Assembly (NCBI GenBank): GCA_001563325.1
Contig: LRSK01000253.1
Coordinates: 1 to 38,400 of the forward strand
DNA length: 38,400 nucleotides
Direction: 5' to 3'
Source of the DNA: Candidatus Thorarchaeota archaeon SMTZ1-83
Lineage (GTDB): Archaea; Asgardarchaeota; Thorarchaeia; Thorarchaeales; Thorarchaeaceae
Each line of letters starts with the position of its first letter. The stretch's first letter is position 1. Shown in pieces: positions 7,395 to 38,366 of the stretch. The translations under genes and the position numbers were made by a program. The notes under the pieces were generated by a model. That model ran no database searches, was not told where the DNA came from, and saw only the letters and a list, made by a program, of their open reading frames with translations.

Positions 7395-7499
7395 CCGGCC
7401 CGACAAAGACACTGTGAGAGCCCGACTGACACTCAAGCTTCATTCGGAATCGCTCAACCACGAATCTTGCAGACTAGATTTGGAGTGTTCAAAAACATC

Positions 7500-9499
7500 A
7501 TGACAACTGAAAGAGGGTCTCCAGAGGAACTCTTCGAAGAGTTCTTGCGAACCTATAAGGACAGACACAATGAGCTGCTCTATTGGAAGAGTCTACAGAG
7601 GATTTCTACCGAGGAAACCTCTCTCCGGGTGAATTTTGGGGACCTAACCAGATTCGAACCAGTCTTTATGCAGCTTGTCACCGAGGATCCCGAATCATTC
7701 TTTGAAATGGCAGACCGAGTTCTGCGGTCAGTATTGCGGACATTGAAGAGAGAGCTAGTGGAGGATATTGAAGAGGAGCTCAGAGTCCGTCTTGTCAACT
7801 TCGCCGAAGAAGAAATGCATAGAGATATGCGAGTGAAGTTGAGGTACATACGGTCCAAACACATAGGACGCCTAATCCGCGTCGACGGTATAATGATGCG
7901 TGCCAGCGAAGTCAAGCCGCTGCTAGTAAATGCAACATTTCAGTGCAGAGTGTGTATGACCGAAATACCTCAGGAACAGGAGGAGGGAAGATACACTGAA
8001 CCCGCACAGTGCCTCACTTGTGGTAAGAAGACTCCAATGAAACTGCTACTTGAACAGTCTAGGTTCATAGACTGGCAAAAGGTCAGAATACAGGAGCGTC
8101 CTGAGGAGCTGCCTGCAGGACAGATGCCTCGGTCAGTGGACGTAGTACTCATGGGTGATATTGTGGACATATCTCGCCCAGGTGACATGGTAAAGATTAC
8201 TGGACTCCTCAAGACGACTCCTGATTTCACGCGACGCGGAGGAAGACTGGCCACGTTCAGAGTATTCATCGAGGCTAACTCAGTGGAGATTGCTGAGAAA
8301 GAATACGAGCTGCAAGAGCTCTCTCCAGAGGACAGAGAGAGGATTGACGAGTTGTCCAAAGACCCCTTCGTTCATAAGAGAATCTTCCGGTCCATTGCCC
8401 CATCAATTCAAGGCTACGATTTGGTGAAGGAGTCAATAGCTCTGCTGCTTTTTGGAGGGGGCGATAGACCACTTCCCGGTGGTACTCAGATGAGAGGCCG
8501 CTCGAATATTCTCATGATTGGCGATCCTGGAACAGGTAAGAGCCAGATTCTGAAGTTCGTTGCAGGTCTTGCGTCAAGGGGTCTCTATACTTCAGGAAAG
8601 GGTACTACTGCGGCGGGACTCACGGCAGCGGTTGTTCACGAAACGGACACAGGAGCCATGACCCTTGAAGCGGGAGCACTGGTCCTGGCAGATCAGGGCA
8701 TCGCATGCATTGATGAGTTCGACAAGATGGATCCGAATGACCGCACAGCTATTCATGAAGCCATGGAACAACATACTGTGAGCATAGCTAAGGCTGGCAT
8801 TGTGGCAACACTGAATGCACGAACCTCAATTCTCGCAGCTGCGAATCCGATTCTCGGCCGATACAACATCAATGAGTCTTTGCAGAACAACACCAGGTTG
8901 CCTGTCACGATACTGTCAAGGTTTGATCTAGTCTGGATAATGATTGATACTGTTGATGAAACTGGCAGATTTCATACTAAGAATGGTTCAGGAAAAACAG
9001 ACTCCCACAGAGGATGAAATTCCGCCGATTGGTTCTGAGCTCCTTAAGAAGTACATAAGCCATGCCATTAGCCTGGAGCTTCGTCCGACACTCAGTGTTG
9101 AGGCGGCCGAAGAAATAGAGAACTATTATGTTGAAACCCGGGCAAACGCACCGGCCGGTACCATCCCAATCACAGCACGTCAATTGGAATCTCTAGTTCG
9201 TTTGGCAGAAGCAAGAGCAACTGCGCATGGTTGCGACTGACCCGATTTCAGGTATTGTGGATTGGGACAGCGCCTACTCAGCTATGGGGGCCAGACAGCG
9301 AAATCTATCCGAGGTAGTTCGAAGAGCAGTTCGTGAAATGGAAGACGAGGGCATGACTACAATAGACGAAGGAGAACTAGTTCAGAGAGTCACTACAGCC
9401 ACTTCTCAAGCACGCGAGAGTATTGAAGAGGTAATCAGCAAACTTGTGGATCAAGGAGTTCTGTATAGACCCCGTGACGGAAAGATTCGTCGCGCTTAG
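7500..9499 (+). pseudogene. mcm: Broken MCM replicative helicase (two internal deletions with frame changes)
   Basis: MCM is the hexameric replicative helicase. The first frame (7500 to about 8960) has the N-terminal domain, a C-x2-C...C-x2-C zinc site (FQCRVC...QCLTCGKK), Walker A GDPGTGKS, Walker B ACIDEFDKM and the arginine finger LSRFDL. After TVDE the protein continues only in a second frame (about 8962-9222: LADFILRMVQ, ELLKKYISHA, PITARQLESLVRLAEARA). After that it continues only in a third frame (about 9215-9499: LRMVATDPISG and a C-terminal winged helix). About 3-4 residues are missing at the first junction and about 20-25 at the second. In the frame given by the DNA, translation stops at 9017, after the arginine finger. 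GTG/ATG starts inside could give fragments. ATG 7500 is chosen over TTG 7467 because the conserved N-terminus begins there. Family identity is certain; whether the lesion is real needs read support. Confidence 0.85.
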
Positions 9500-12978: not shown

Positions 12979-13041
12979 GTGTCAGACAACGAAACGATAA
13001 CACGGGTCGGTAGTCTAGCTTGGTATGATTCTTGCTTGGGG

Positions 13042-13073
13042 CGACTAAGGACCTAGGACCTCAAGTCACAGAA
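13042..13073 (+). other. tRNA-Pro intron 1 (anticodon loop, 37/38)
   Basis: A 32-nt insertion between G37 and T38. An internal GACT/AGTC helix and the flanking three-base bulges fit splicing by the archaeal tRNA endonuclease. The central helix has three pairs of four. Confidence 0.8.
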
Positions 13074-13095
13074 TGCAAGAGATCGGGAGTTCAAG

Positions 13096-13125
13096 TGTGC
13101 ACAGAAATACTCTGTGCATTGAAAA
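13096..13125 (+). other. tRNA-Pro intron 2 (T loop, 59/60)
   Basis: A 30-nt insertion in the T loop. The BHB is canonical: a 4-bp central helix TTCA/TGAA, two three-base bulges, and a 9-bp inner stem closing an AATAC loop. Confidence 0.85.
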
Positions 13126-13208
13126 TCTCCCCCGGCCCACCACCAGAATTCCCACTAGTTCTACAGAGAATCAGCCACCTCAGGTTAGATGCCTTAGAGA
13201 ATGGAGGA

Positions 13209-13322: not shown

Positions 13323-13886
13323 CTATCTGCTCCTCACTTCCCACATAGTCTCATAGATTGGTCCTGCTTGAGTCAGAGTGCTCCGAGTTAGCCTGAAACA
13401 ATCCACAGACATTGTGCCTACTGACTCAGCGGCCATGCCATCAAGATTCCCGAAAACCCGTTCACGGTCTCTGACAGATCGCACTCGAGCTATCGTTACA
13501 TGCGCATGAAACCTCCTGTCAGATGGATAACCTAAGTTCCCCAGCAGGTCGTCTATCGAGAGTTTGAGTTTCACGAGTCTCTCTGCGTTCTGAGTGACAC
13601 CAACCCAGATAACGTTGGGTCGCCGTTTGCTGGGAAATGCTCCTACCCCCTCGATGCTGATTGTGAACGGGCTGAACTCGACCTTCTCAAGCGCATGTCG
13701 GATTTGTACTATCTTGCTAAGTGGGGTGTCCCCGAAGAATCGAAGCGTGAAATGGAGGCTGTCTGGTTCAACAATCTTCATCTTTGCAGCTTGCCTGTCC
13801 AGCTTCTGCTGGATATGCGCAATCCTTGAGATTAGTGCGTTATCTTCGATGTCTACACTCAGAAATGCTCTGATTGCCTCAGACAT
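13323..13886 (-). CDS. thpR: RNA 2',3'-cyclic 3'-phosphodiesterase (2H/LigT family)
   Basis: 2H phosphodiesterase that opens 2',3'-cyclic phosphates, such as those left by tRNA splicing endonuclease, or ligates tRNA halves. The two catalytic H-x-T motifs are present: HFTL (in LHFTLRFFGDT) and HVTI (in FHAHVTIARVRSV). The N-terminal strand RAFLSVDIED and the segment RRPNVIWVGV are typical. ATG 13886 is chosen because a strong GAGGTGA lies six bases before it and the conserved domain starts at once; the frame is open to 13925. The protein has 187 aa. Its neighbour, a tRNA gene with two introns, produces the kind of ends this enzyme handles, but that link is only suggestive. Confidence 0.9.
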   Translation of the reverse strand: MSEAIRAFLSVDIEDNALISRIAHIQQKLDRQAAKMKIVEPDSLHFTLRFFGDTPLSKIVQIRHALEKVEFSPFTISIEGVGAFPSKRRPNVIWVGVTQNAERLVKLKLSIDDLLGNLGYPSDRRFHAHVTIARVRSVRDRERVFGNLDGMAAESVGTMSVDCFRLTRSTLTQAGPIYETMWEVRSR

Positions 13887-14008
13887 GACTTCACCTCGTA
13901 CTCCATAACGCTTGGCATGATGCATAGATATATCGTATGACTCTGCTTAACCACAAGGATTAAGCACAATGTAGGAGTCTGGGCATTCGCGTCTTGGAGT
14001 CTACGAAG

Positions 14009-36585: not shown

Positions 36586-36604
36586 CTTAGACATTGAGTC
36601 TAAG
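36586..36604. repeat. Perfect hairpin across the tnpB stop codon (probable right-end element)
   Basis: CTTAGAC (36586-36592) is perfectly complementary to GTCTAAG (36598-36604), with an ATTGA loop. It covers the tnpB stop. IS200/IS605 elements carry such subterminal hairpins at the right end, and omega RNA 3' ends map here. The precise element boundary is not visible. Confidence 0.5.
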
Positions 36605-38366
36605 CAGTCCACCCACCAACGGCAGTGGGTTTCATAGGTTGTTTGACATGCATAATGTTCCGCGCAGCATTCACATCAGCATGAAAGTATTCATCACACT
36701 TTTCACAGTAGAAGTACTCACCACCTCTCCTCTCAGAGGTAGACATTTCATCCTCCACACGAACCCCCCGCTCTCCACAGACATGACAGGTTTGAGAAGT
36801 CCACGCCGGTTTGACCAGCCAGACACCTCCGTCACGATGACCTAGGGCCTCCCGCCTGTAGCGCACTCCCTCAATCATCATCCCCCATAGATTGGTGGAG
36901 AGGTTCCAGCTGTGTCTTCTCATCCCTCCCGCCCCCTGGAAGGAACGGAGGTCTTCGAAGTAGATGGTCTTTACGCCATGATGCTCACATAACCACACAG
37001 TTTCAGCGGCGACCTGATGGGAGATTTCTTTGTCTAAGCGACGGACCTTTCTCCATACTGACTCCAGTTCTCTCTCTTTCTTCAGGATGATAGCTGGAGG
37101 CTGCTGCCTAGCATGTTTCTTCTCCCAGTTGTTACGCTTCAGTGCCACTTGCGACATCAAGACTCTGGTCTGTTGTCTGAGTCGCTCTCTCTTTTCGTAC
37201 AACTCTTGTCTTCCAATCAATCTCTCCTCGTAAGCATCATCGCCGTTCTTCACCGATACCACCATTGAGTGTCGCAGTCCCCTGTCAACGCCAGCCCTTC
37301 TCTTTCGAGCTACAGAAGATGTGAGAGTATCCTTCAACATCTCATCACTTGGAGGTACAAAAGGAATTGATAGTGTTACTTGCTTTCCAACAACCTTGAT
37401 GAGCGGAGGAGCTGAACGTCGCGACTTCTTCAAGGCGTTAATTGCAGTCTTCAAGTCATCTATTTGAACTCTATTCTTCTCAGGTTGTACTCGTTCTCTT
37501 GCGAGCTCACGAGTGAACTGTTGGAGCTTTATTGTGTTCTTGAGTTGCTCACCCATGTCCTCAAAGCGAGCAGCTCGATAGTCAAGTTGGAACGCTCGCT
37601 GAATGTGACCTTTTGCTCTTGCCTGTTGCGCTTTTCTCCTTGCTCTTTTTGCTTTTCGAGGAAACCAGTTTAGAAATCGCAGTCGCACAGTCTGACTCTT
37701 GTATGGTGAATCTGTGTCCAACTCATGTCCTAGTATTCCAGGGGGCGTCTTGATGTAGAGGATAATCTCATCCTCTCGTTCTGGGTCTGGCTTGAACCAG
37801 TATCCCTGTCCAGTCGCGTTCTCAGTGGAGGCCGAAAAGTCAAGCGTGTTTCTTCGGAATGTTGGAGTGGTGAAGGGGAATCCCTCCTTCTTCCACTTTC
37901 TGACTTGGTTAATGATCAGCGTCTGAGTCTGTAGTCTTTCGGGGGAAGTCGTTTCTAGTAGCTCACGTGTGCTTCTTCTTCTCTCACCTTCTTCTAATGG
38001 ATAGGCCTCGCGTACTTTGGTCCTTAGTACACTCCTCACCTGCCGACAGGCTGAGAGTGCATAATGATATGACCCATTAGATTTCCTCTCAATGGTTTCC
38101 TTCACTCTTCGAACGAGATCCGAAGGAATTCTTCTATTGGCCATCAGACGTAGGAGTTGTGCATCATCAGAAACAAGGAGGTCCAGCAGCGAATTGACCA
38201 GTATCCGGCGAGTATAGTGTGCATAGACTATTCGGGCTGCAGTTTCGAGAGCGTTGCGGTGTAATCGCTCATACACCAACTCCCCGAATTCATTATCAGG
38301 TTTCCATTTGAAACATCGCTCCTTTCGAAGAACGAGATATGCCATACCTCTTGACTGTTCAAGCAT
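36600..38366 (-). CDS. tnpB: Long TnpB-like RNA-guided nuclease of the IS200/IS605 superfamily
   Basis: TnpB proteins are RNA-guided DNA nucleases, the ancestors of Cas12. The RuvC residues are visible: GVDRG with Asp361, IYFEDLRS with Glu471, and HADVNAARN with Asp564. The zinc finger uses Cys527/Cys530 and Cys554/Cys557. At 588 aa it is well above the usual size near 400, because of an N-terminal half with long helical, basic stretches (for example RKAKRARRKAQQARAKGH). ATG 38345 is an alternative start. No tnpA gene lies in the window. The left end would be beyond 38400. A second hairpin, ACCCAC/GTGGGT (36611-36630), lies in the last codons. The element sits directly upstream of the eS1 promoter. 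Confidence 0.85.
   Translation of the reverse strand: MLEQSRGMAYLVLRKERCFKWKPDNEFGELVYERLHRNALETAARIVYAHYTRRILVNSLLDLLVSDDAQLLRLMANRRIPSDLVRRVKETIERKSNGSYHYALSACRQVRSVLRTKVREAYPLEEGERRRSTRELLETTSPERLQTQTLIINQVRKWKKEGFPFTTPTFRRNTLDFSASTENATGQGYWFKPDPEREDEIILYIKTPPGILGHELDTDSPYKSQTVRLRFLNWFPRKAKRARRKAQQARAKGHIQRAFQLDYRAARFEDMGEQLKNTIKLQQFTRELARERVQPEKNRVQIDDLKTAINALKKSRRSAPPLIKVVGKQVTLSIPFVPPSDEMLKDTLTSSVARKRRAGVDRGLRHSMVVSVKNGDDAYEERLIGRQELYEKRERLRQQTRVLMSQVALKRNNWEKKHARQQPPAIILKKERELESVWRKVRRLDKEISHQVAAETVWLCEHHGVKTIYFEDLRSFQGAGGMRRHSWNLSTNLWGMMIEGVRYRREALGHRDGGVWLVKPAWTSQTCHVCGERGVRVEDEMSTSERRGGEYFYCEKCDEYFHADVNAARNIMHVKQPMKPTAVGGWTA

Follow-up and report, generated by a model that had tools for sequence, protein, structure and literature searches.

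A tRNA-Pro(GGG) gene of Thorarchaeota with introns at 37/38 and in the T loop at 59/60, and T-loop introns in other tRNAs of its class

Can a stretch of archaeal DNA that reads as a proline tRNA only when two inserts are taken out, one of them from inside the T loop, be a functional gene, and if it is, does it stand alone? The stretch analysed here, called the window, comprises 38,400 nucleotides of contig LRSK01000253.1. The Asgard origin suspected for it is borne out, as the nearest organism-named Hel308 proteins and the closest named contigs are those of Thorarchaeota, and the window encodes Roadblock and Arf-type proteins. In the nearest genome found, G039, Hel308 is 92% identical and the DNA is 85-88% identical over aligned stretches. 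Runs of 100 N precede tRNA-Pro in G039 and the pieces flanking them are collinear with the window; because of that length and that collinearity they are taken as assembly gaps. The window itself has a broken MCM gene (7467-9443) in which, by comparison with the intact G039 frame, 14 nt are missing near 8957 and a further 68 nt near 9219, each loss being frameshifting, and this reflects either an assembly error or real damage. It also has a gene for a TnpB/OrfB-like transposon protein whose TNB domain is Cas12f1-like (36600-38366) and, just downstream of the tRNA gene and on the opposite strand, a LigT or 2′-5′ RNA ligase-like gene (13323-13925) with a conceivable link to tRNA end processing.

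The tRNA-Pro(GGG) gene, recognized from sequence and fold, is on the forward strand at 13004-13142, has two introns and encodes its own CCA. Exon 1 (13004-13041; tRNA positions 1-37) contributes the 5′ strand of the acceptor stem, the D arm, the 5′ strand of the anticodon stem and TTGGGG. Exon 2 (13074-13095; positions 38-59) contributes the 3′ strand of the anticodon stem, the variable loop, the 5′ strand of the T stem and TTCAAG, and exon 3 (13126-13142; positions 60-76) contributes T60, the 3′ strands of the T and acceptor stems, A73 and CCA. The acceptor stem is GGGTCGG/CCGGCCC and the anticodon is GGG. The preliminary description had put 32 nt at 37/38 and 30 nt at 59/60, and that is exactly where the inserts lie: intron 1 occupies 13042-13073, and intron 2, within the T loop, 13096-13125. 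The assignment and its exact boundaries are upheld by the sequence, by a standard tRNA finder applied to the spliced form and by orthologues.

Removal of both inserts yields a predicted tRNA-Pro(GGG) of 77 nt, which ARAGORN reports as tRNA-Pro(ggg); from the unspliced gene the same program makes no call. When 120 first-order Markov windows were scanned on both strands with a custom tRNA-finding script having intron limits of 60 nt, two hits resulted, the better of which scored 24.2 against 32.5 for the tRNA-Pro gene. The predicted product is identical at 77/77 positions to the exons of an orthologue, L001, that naturally lacks the T-loop intron and whose anticodon intron was removed computationally, and at 75/77 positions to an orthologue with neither intron, L145, the two differences being one compensated T-stem pair. 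As L001, with its plain T loop, and the intronless L145 match the predicted product, both cut sites are supported, and the boundaries at 59/60 are fixed by orthologues without the intron, beyond what folding alone provides. Failure of the Rfam model RF00005 to report the gene was considered as a sign of its introns and rejected; it is uninformative on them because at the gathering score RF00005 misses the intronless L145 too. The gene is real but is no isolated oddity, since relatives keep or lack an intron at the same site and carry similar introns in other tRNAs.

Among the 47 genomes of the class to which G001 belongs, tRNA-Pro(GGG) could be read in 38, with the T-loop intron present in 21, the sister genome G039 included, and absent in 17; no state was assigned in the other nine. 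The gene is downstream of Hel308 in 18 of 22 Thorarchaeota loci (L001-L022), ten of the 18 having the T-loop intron and eight being without it. A quick Hel308 tree, built without bootstrap and having some long branches (40 rows, of which 34 were scored, 19 with and 15 without the intron), requires at least nine changes of state, five of which well-supported branches make unavoidable. With shuffled labels the mean number required is 11.4, and in 53 of 500 shuffles nine or fewer suffice, so the intron state is only weakly clustered on the tree. Either the clade of the window gained the intron or its sister clade, G001 and G002, lost it. One genome, G015, shows both states in two tRNA-Pro(GGG) genes (L117 and L160), though the copy with the intron, on a 6-kb contig like that of G047, is perhaps a binning error. 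Twenty other tRNA-like places were sampled in relatives, five of them from G039, and the 15 that could be parsed, among the matches listed, comprise 11 Pro (ten CGG, one TGG), three Val and one Ile genes, with no second GGG gene. The reverse of the tRNA-Pro distribution is seen with tRNA-Gly(CCC): the window gene (1841-1914) is intronless and its counterpart at L001:2168-2270 has a 30-nt T-loop intron.

The location of the intron in the T arm, and the frequency with which its state differs between relatives, are in keeping with the idea, attributed in the accessible text of PMC3293823 to Randau and Soell, that such an intron is kept as protection in that it interrupts the tRNA 3′ half, which viral and plasmid integrases use as their attachment site. 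These features are equally well matched by neutral gain and loss, and protection, which would give the spliced intron a function and replace nothing in the reading of the gene, is considered unlikely here.

The T-loop intron was described at the outset as having a textbook bulge-helix-bulge (BHB), and every element of it is there, at 13090-13126 of the forward strand. The four-bp helix is formed by TTCA (13090-13093) and TGAA (13120-13123), the bulges are AGT (13094-13096) and AAT (13124-13126), each of three nt, and the inner stem (13097-13105 with 13111-13119) has nine bp, one of them G-U. The T-arm hairpin is unusually stable (z = -5.98; none of 200 shuffles was equally stable); in the minimum-energy fold the TTCA/TGAA helix is open by 0.1 kcal/mol and in the centroid three of its four pairs form, so its energy is marginal. 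With a BHB at its splice sites, a standard tRNA on its removal and a position other than 37/38, it is, by sequence and predicted structure, an archaeal non-canonical BHB tRNA intron. Many relatives have instead, on the 3′ side, a three-bp helix and a five-nt bulge, and because this departs from the textbook BHB their exact 3′ cut is ambiguous. For many of them splicing at 58/59 is the likelier register, as 69 of the 93 T-loop introns in the collection conform to a TTC/GRR three-bp helix with a five-nt 3′ bulge, and the same register might be supposed for the window. Against that, the window intron fits the canonical motif of four bp and two three-nt bulges, and a cut at 59/60 leaves TTCAAGT, the T loop of sister-clade genes without the intron, whereas 58/59 would leave TTCAAAT; splicing of the window gene at 58/59 is very unlikely.

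Pairing in the inner stem has been maintained as its sequence changed. The T-arm alignments used 22 of 23 T arms, L136 being omitted. In the six introns that share the canonical register of the window intron, itself included, eight of the nine inner-stem pairs vary on both sides, and the share of cells that pair is 94.4%, falling to 42-56% when the partner is slid by one to three columns; in the 16 introns of the other register all nine pairs vary on both sides. The covariation score was reached by none of 500 shuffles, though such counts are not probabilities because the sequences are related. Across the 210 pairs formed by 21 intron-holding genes (the window in, G039 out), exons have a mean identity of 97.5% and T-loop introns of 60.0%. 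That the insert is never removed, the gene being a decaying pseudogene or its mature tRNA having an enlarged T loop, would accord with the silence of ARAGORN on the unspliced gene, but is highly improbable given the retention of the insert with compensatory changes in 21 of 47 class genomes, the disparity between exon and intron identity, the occurrence of exactly the spliced T loop in orthologues without the insert and, G015 with its two genes excepted, the lack of another GGG gene among the 15 parsed of the 20 places sampled from the matches listed in relatives.

For the anticodon intron a relaxed BHB with one mismatch had been proposed, and this too holds: its central helix is TTGG/ACAG, in which G35 stands opposite A. 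Of 26 aligned sequences, 23 lack a standard pair at the mismatch site and three have G-C. Covariation is weaker than for the T-loop intron, with three of four counted inner pairs varying on both sides in this alignment, which holds 26 of 31 distinct sequences, five deviating ones being omitted. The intron is missing from the orthologues in G030 and G031 (L145 and L147).

Covariance models built from intron-containing T arms were run against the class and the phylum. At E ≤ 1e-4 one of them, R1, matches in at least 42 of the 47 genomes of the class, with training sequences drawn from 14 of them, and in at least 61 of 180 other Asgard genomes, where most matches are uninspected; the genome counts are lower bounds because few candidates per genome were scored. 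At the same threshold matches to R1 only number six in G008, two in G039 and one in G022. Plain T arms served as internal control, their 28-nt model matches being near or below 33 bits. Of archaeal genomes with non-Asgard titles two of 40 matched (40 of 50 such loci), both Bathyarchaeota. The two Bathyarchaeota loci, L292 and L293, are tRNA-Lys(TTT) genes, each with a parsed T-loop intron of the same kind.

From the class 78 loci, some of which repeat known Pro genes, were taken, and in 47 a complete tRNA with a T-loop intron could be parsed. Inspection by eye of the 31 unparsed ones revealed a T arm with an insert and an acceptor end, often with extra introns, and according to a script the T stem is paired throughout in 30 of them. 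From outside the class, six of 20 places parse and the other 14 were read by eye. T-loop introns were parsed within the class in tRNAs for 11 amino acids: Pro, Gly, Tyr, Val, Thr, Ser, Ala, Ile, Lys, Leu and Trp. L257 parsed as Ala though its body is that of Ser, and L209, whose parse was an Asp tRNA on the opposite strand, was not counted. Several genes for tRNA-Ile(GAT) and tRNA-Val (L204, L237, L240, L261, L265 and others), in addition to the intron in the T loop, seemingly have others, in the D loop or at other sites. Low-scoring RF00005 places from G005, G022 and G023 (n = 16) yielded four that parsed with a T-loop intron, and five tRNAs with T-loop introns score 18.5-31.7 bits with RF00005.

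The collection of 93 T-loop introns derives from 43 class genomes and the window; identity labels of the 31 unparsed loci in it were assigned by eye, L133 was dropped for a wrong pick, and L248, with one T-stem mismatch, gave no pick. Their lengths are 28-32 nt, the visible range being narrowed by the search model and the picking limits. A triplet able to pair with T54-T55-C56 is present in 92 of the 93, a feature that model and picking rule favor. The core GGGATTTCCC occurs exactly in nine of the 93, in six tRNA identities, against a mean of 0.00 for shuffled cores, though the model contains the consensus and the shuffle ignores pairing; that the core marks an intron sequence family is suggestive, with a bias from the search model. 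In G039 tRNA-Ile(GAT) is present twice with the same body, one copy (L327) having the T loop TTCAAAT and the other (L253) a 29-nt insert, removal of which at 58/59 gives TTCAAAT, the T loop of L327.

What enzyme might act on these introns? The family of the tRNA splicing endonuclease EndA, PF01974, was found in all 23 relatives' genomes searched and in two copies in 20 of them. G039 has two such genes, the α of which keeps both loop signature and catalytic residues. The best PDB matches of α are 3p1z (7e-45), 3ajv, 2zyz and 2cv8, from the crenarchaeal Aeropyrum, Aeropyrum, Pyrobaculum and Sulfolobus respectively. The loop GIRKPK is present in 20 of 21 α loci and in G039, L100 having a misread frame and being left unjudged, and its Lys-Pro-Lys aligns with Lys44-Pro45-Arg46 of the Crenarchaea-specific loop. 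The α of relatives keeps the catalytic Tyr, His and Lys of EndA, and the nine β sequences are without the His. Two paralogous subunits, one of them catalytic, and a loop with Lys followed by Pro or Val and a basic residue place the relatives' predicted enzyme with the (αβ)2 type. In the available sections of PMC12397907 that loop signature is given as Crenarchaea-specific and linked to broad specificity, and in those of PMC4090602 and PMC4033280 the (αβ)2 type is linked to non-canonical introns. To judge by sequence, the relation to the crenarchaeal-type α is clear. Thorarchaeota relatives share with the (αβ)2 EndA of Crenarchaeota the α loop signature and a second subunit type without the His; they differ in being Asgard hosts, and their complex is a predicted one. 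The suggestion that the gene implies an endonuclease of relaxed specificity does not follow from the gene itself, because its T-loop BHB is canonical; the relatives nevertheless encode an enzyme type linked to relaxed motifs.

The window gene is almost certainly a functional Thorarchaeota tRNA-Pro(GGG) gene, transcribed as a precursor with two BHB introns that are spliced by protein enzymes. A tRNA splicing endonuclease, most likely (αβ)2, would cut both bulges of each BHB, in the T loop between AG and T and between AA and T. The exons would then be joined to give the 77-nt tRNA, archaeal tRNA exon ligation being the work of RtcB, and the introns would be released as small RNAs, probably circles. 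In the central helix of the T-loop BHB, T54-T55-C56, here with A57 as well, would pair with TGAA near the 3′ end of the intron and may hold off elbow formation until the intron has been removed. The T-loop modifications and the RNase P steps depend on the elbow and would come after splicing.

As the T-loop intron supplies one side of the splice motif only, it could fit almost any tRNA: its 3′ end, GAA or the like, would pair with the TTC that almost all tRNAs have in their T loop. It may even be that in Thorarchaeota and the rest of the Asgard archaea T-loop introns make up a single portable family, with units of about 30 nt able to enter and leave any tRNA without prior adaptation of the exons, a tentative proposal on which we lean slightly to the side of doubt.

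That a T-loop intron in an Asgard genome would broaden the known range, as first thought, is not borne out in that form: position 59/60 is already among the archaeal tRNA intron sites listed in the accessible part of the review PMC4090602, and Asgard genomes in which 92-95% of tRNA genes hold introns, often non-canonical, were published in 2024 (PMC11291895, available text). Introns of the Thermoproteales type at 59/60 share with that of the window gene the position, the BHB, a short length and the occurrence of more than one intron per gene; the text of PMC4090602 at hand gives for tRNA-Pro(UGG) of P. islandicum introns at 25/26, 37/38 and 56/57. They differ in host, and the Thorarchaeota T-loop introns span 11 amino acids in one class and form a set of 28-32 nt (n = 93, lengths narrowed by model and picking limits). 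The Atabeyarchaeia and Freyarchaeia of PMC11291895 are likewise Asgard, with many non-canonical positions and multiple introns per gene, and are named classes other than that of the window. Caldiarchaeum subterraneum, according to the accessible portion of PMC3293823, likewise has T-arm tRNA introns, and there an intron has been gained or lost inside a single population; it is non-Asgard, its polymorphic gene is tRNA-Thr(GGU), and integration of mobile elements is proposed there. The tRNA intron transposition in Thermoproteales of Fujishima 2010, as cited in the available text of PMC4090602 and PMC4033280, likewise involves similar introns across tRNA identities and recent gain; in Thorarchaeota, where transposition is a candidate process, shared structure and the search model account in part for the likeness between introns of different identities. 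A limited search of open-licence PMC literature, supplements excluded, found no description of Thorarchaeota T-loop introns, nor did we see there a stereotyped intron of this kind, the TTC of the T loop as half of the splice motif, or frequent changes of state at one such site.

Taken by itself the gene adds one case to the non-canonical tRNA introns of archaea, and what follows from it matters more. A stereotyped T-loop intron of an Asgard class can escape common tRNA finders. Pairs with and without the intron at one locus are clean material for the study of intron gain and loss and of the movement of BHB introns between tRNAs, and if the portable family is real, the two tRNA-Ile(GAT) copies of G039 make gain by transposition directly testable. 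The introns and the enzyme genes of the relatives also offer material for the co-evolution of endonuclease and intron in those archaea that are regarded as the closest to eukaryotes.
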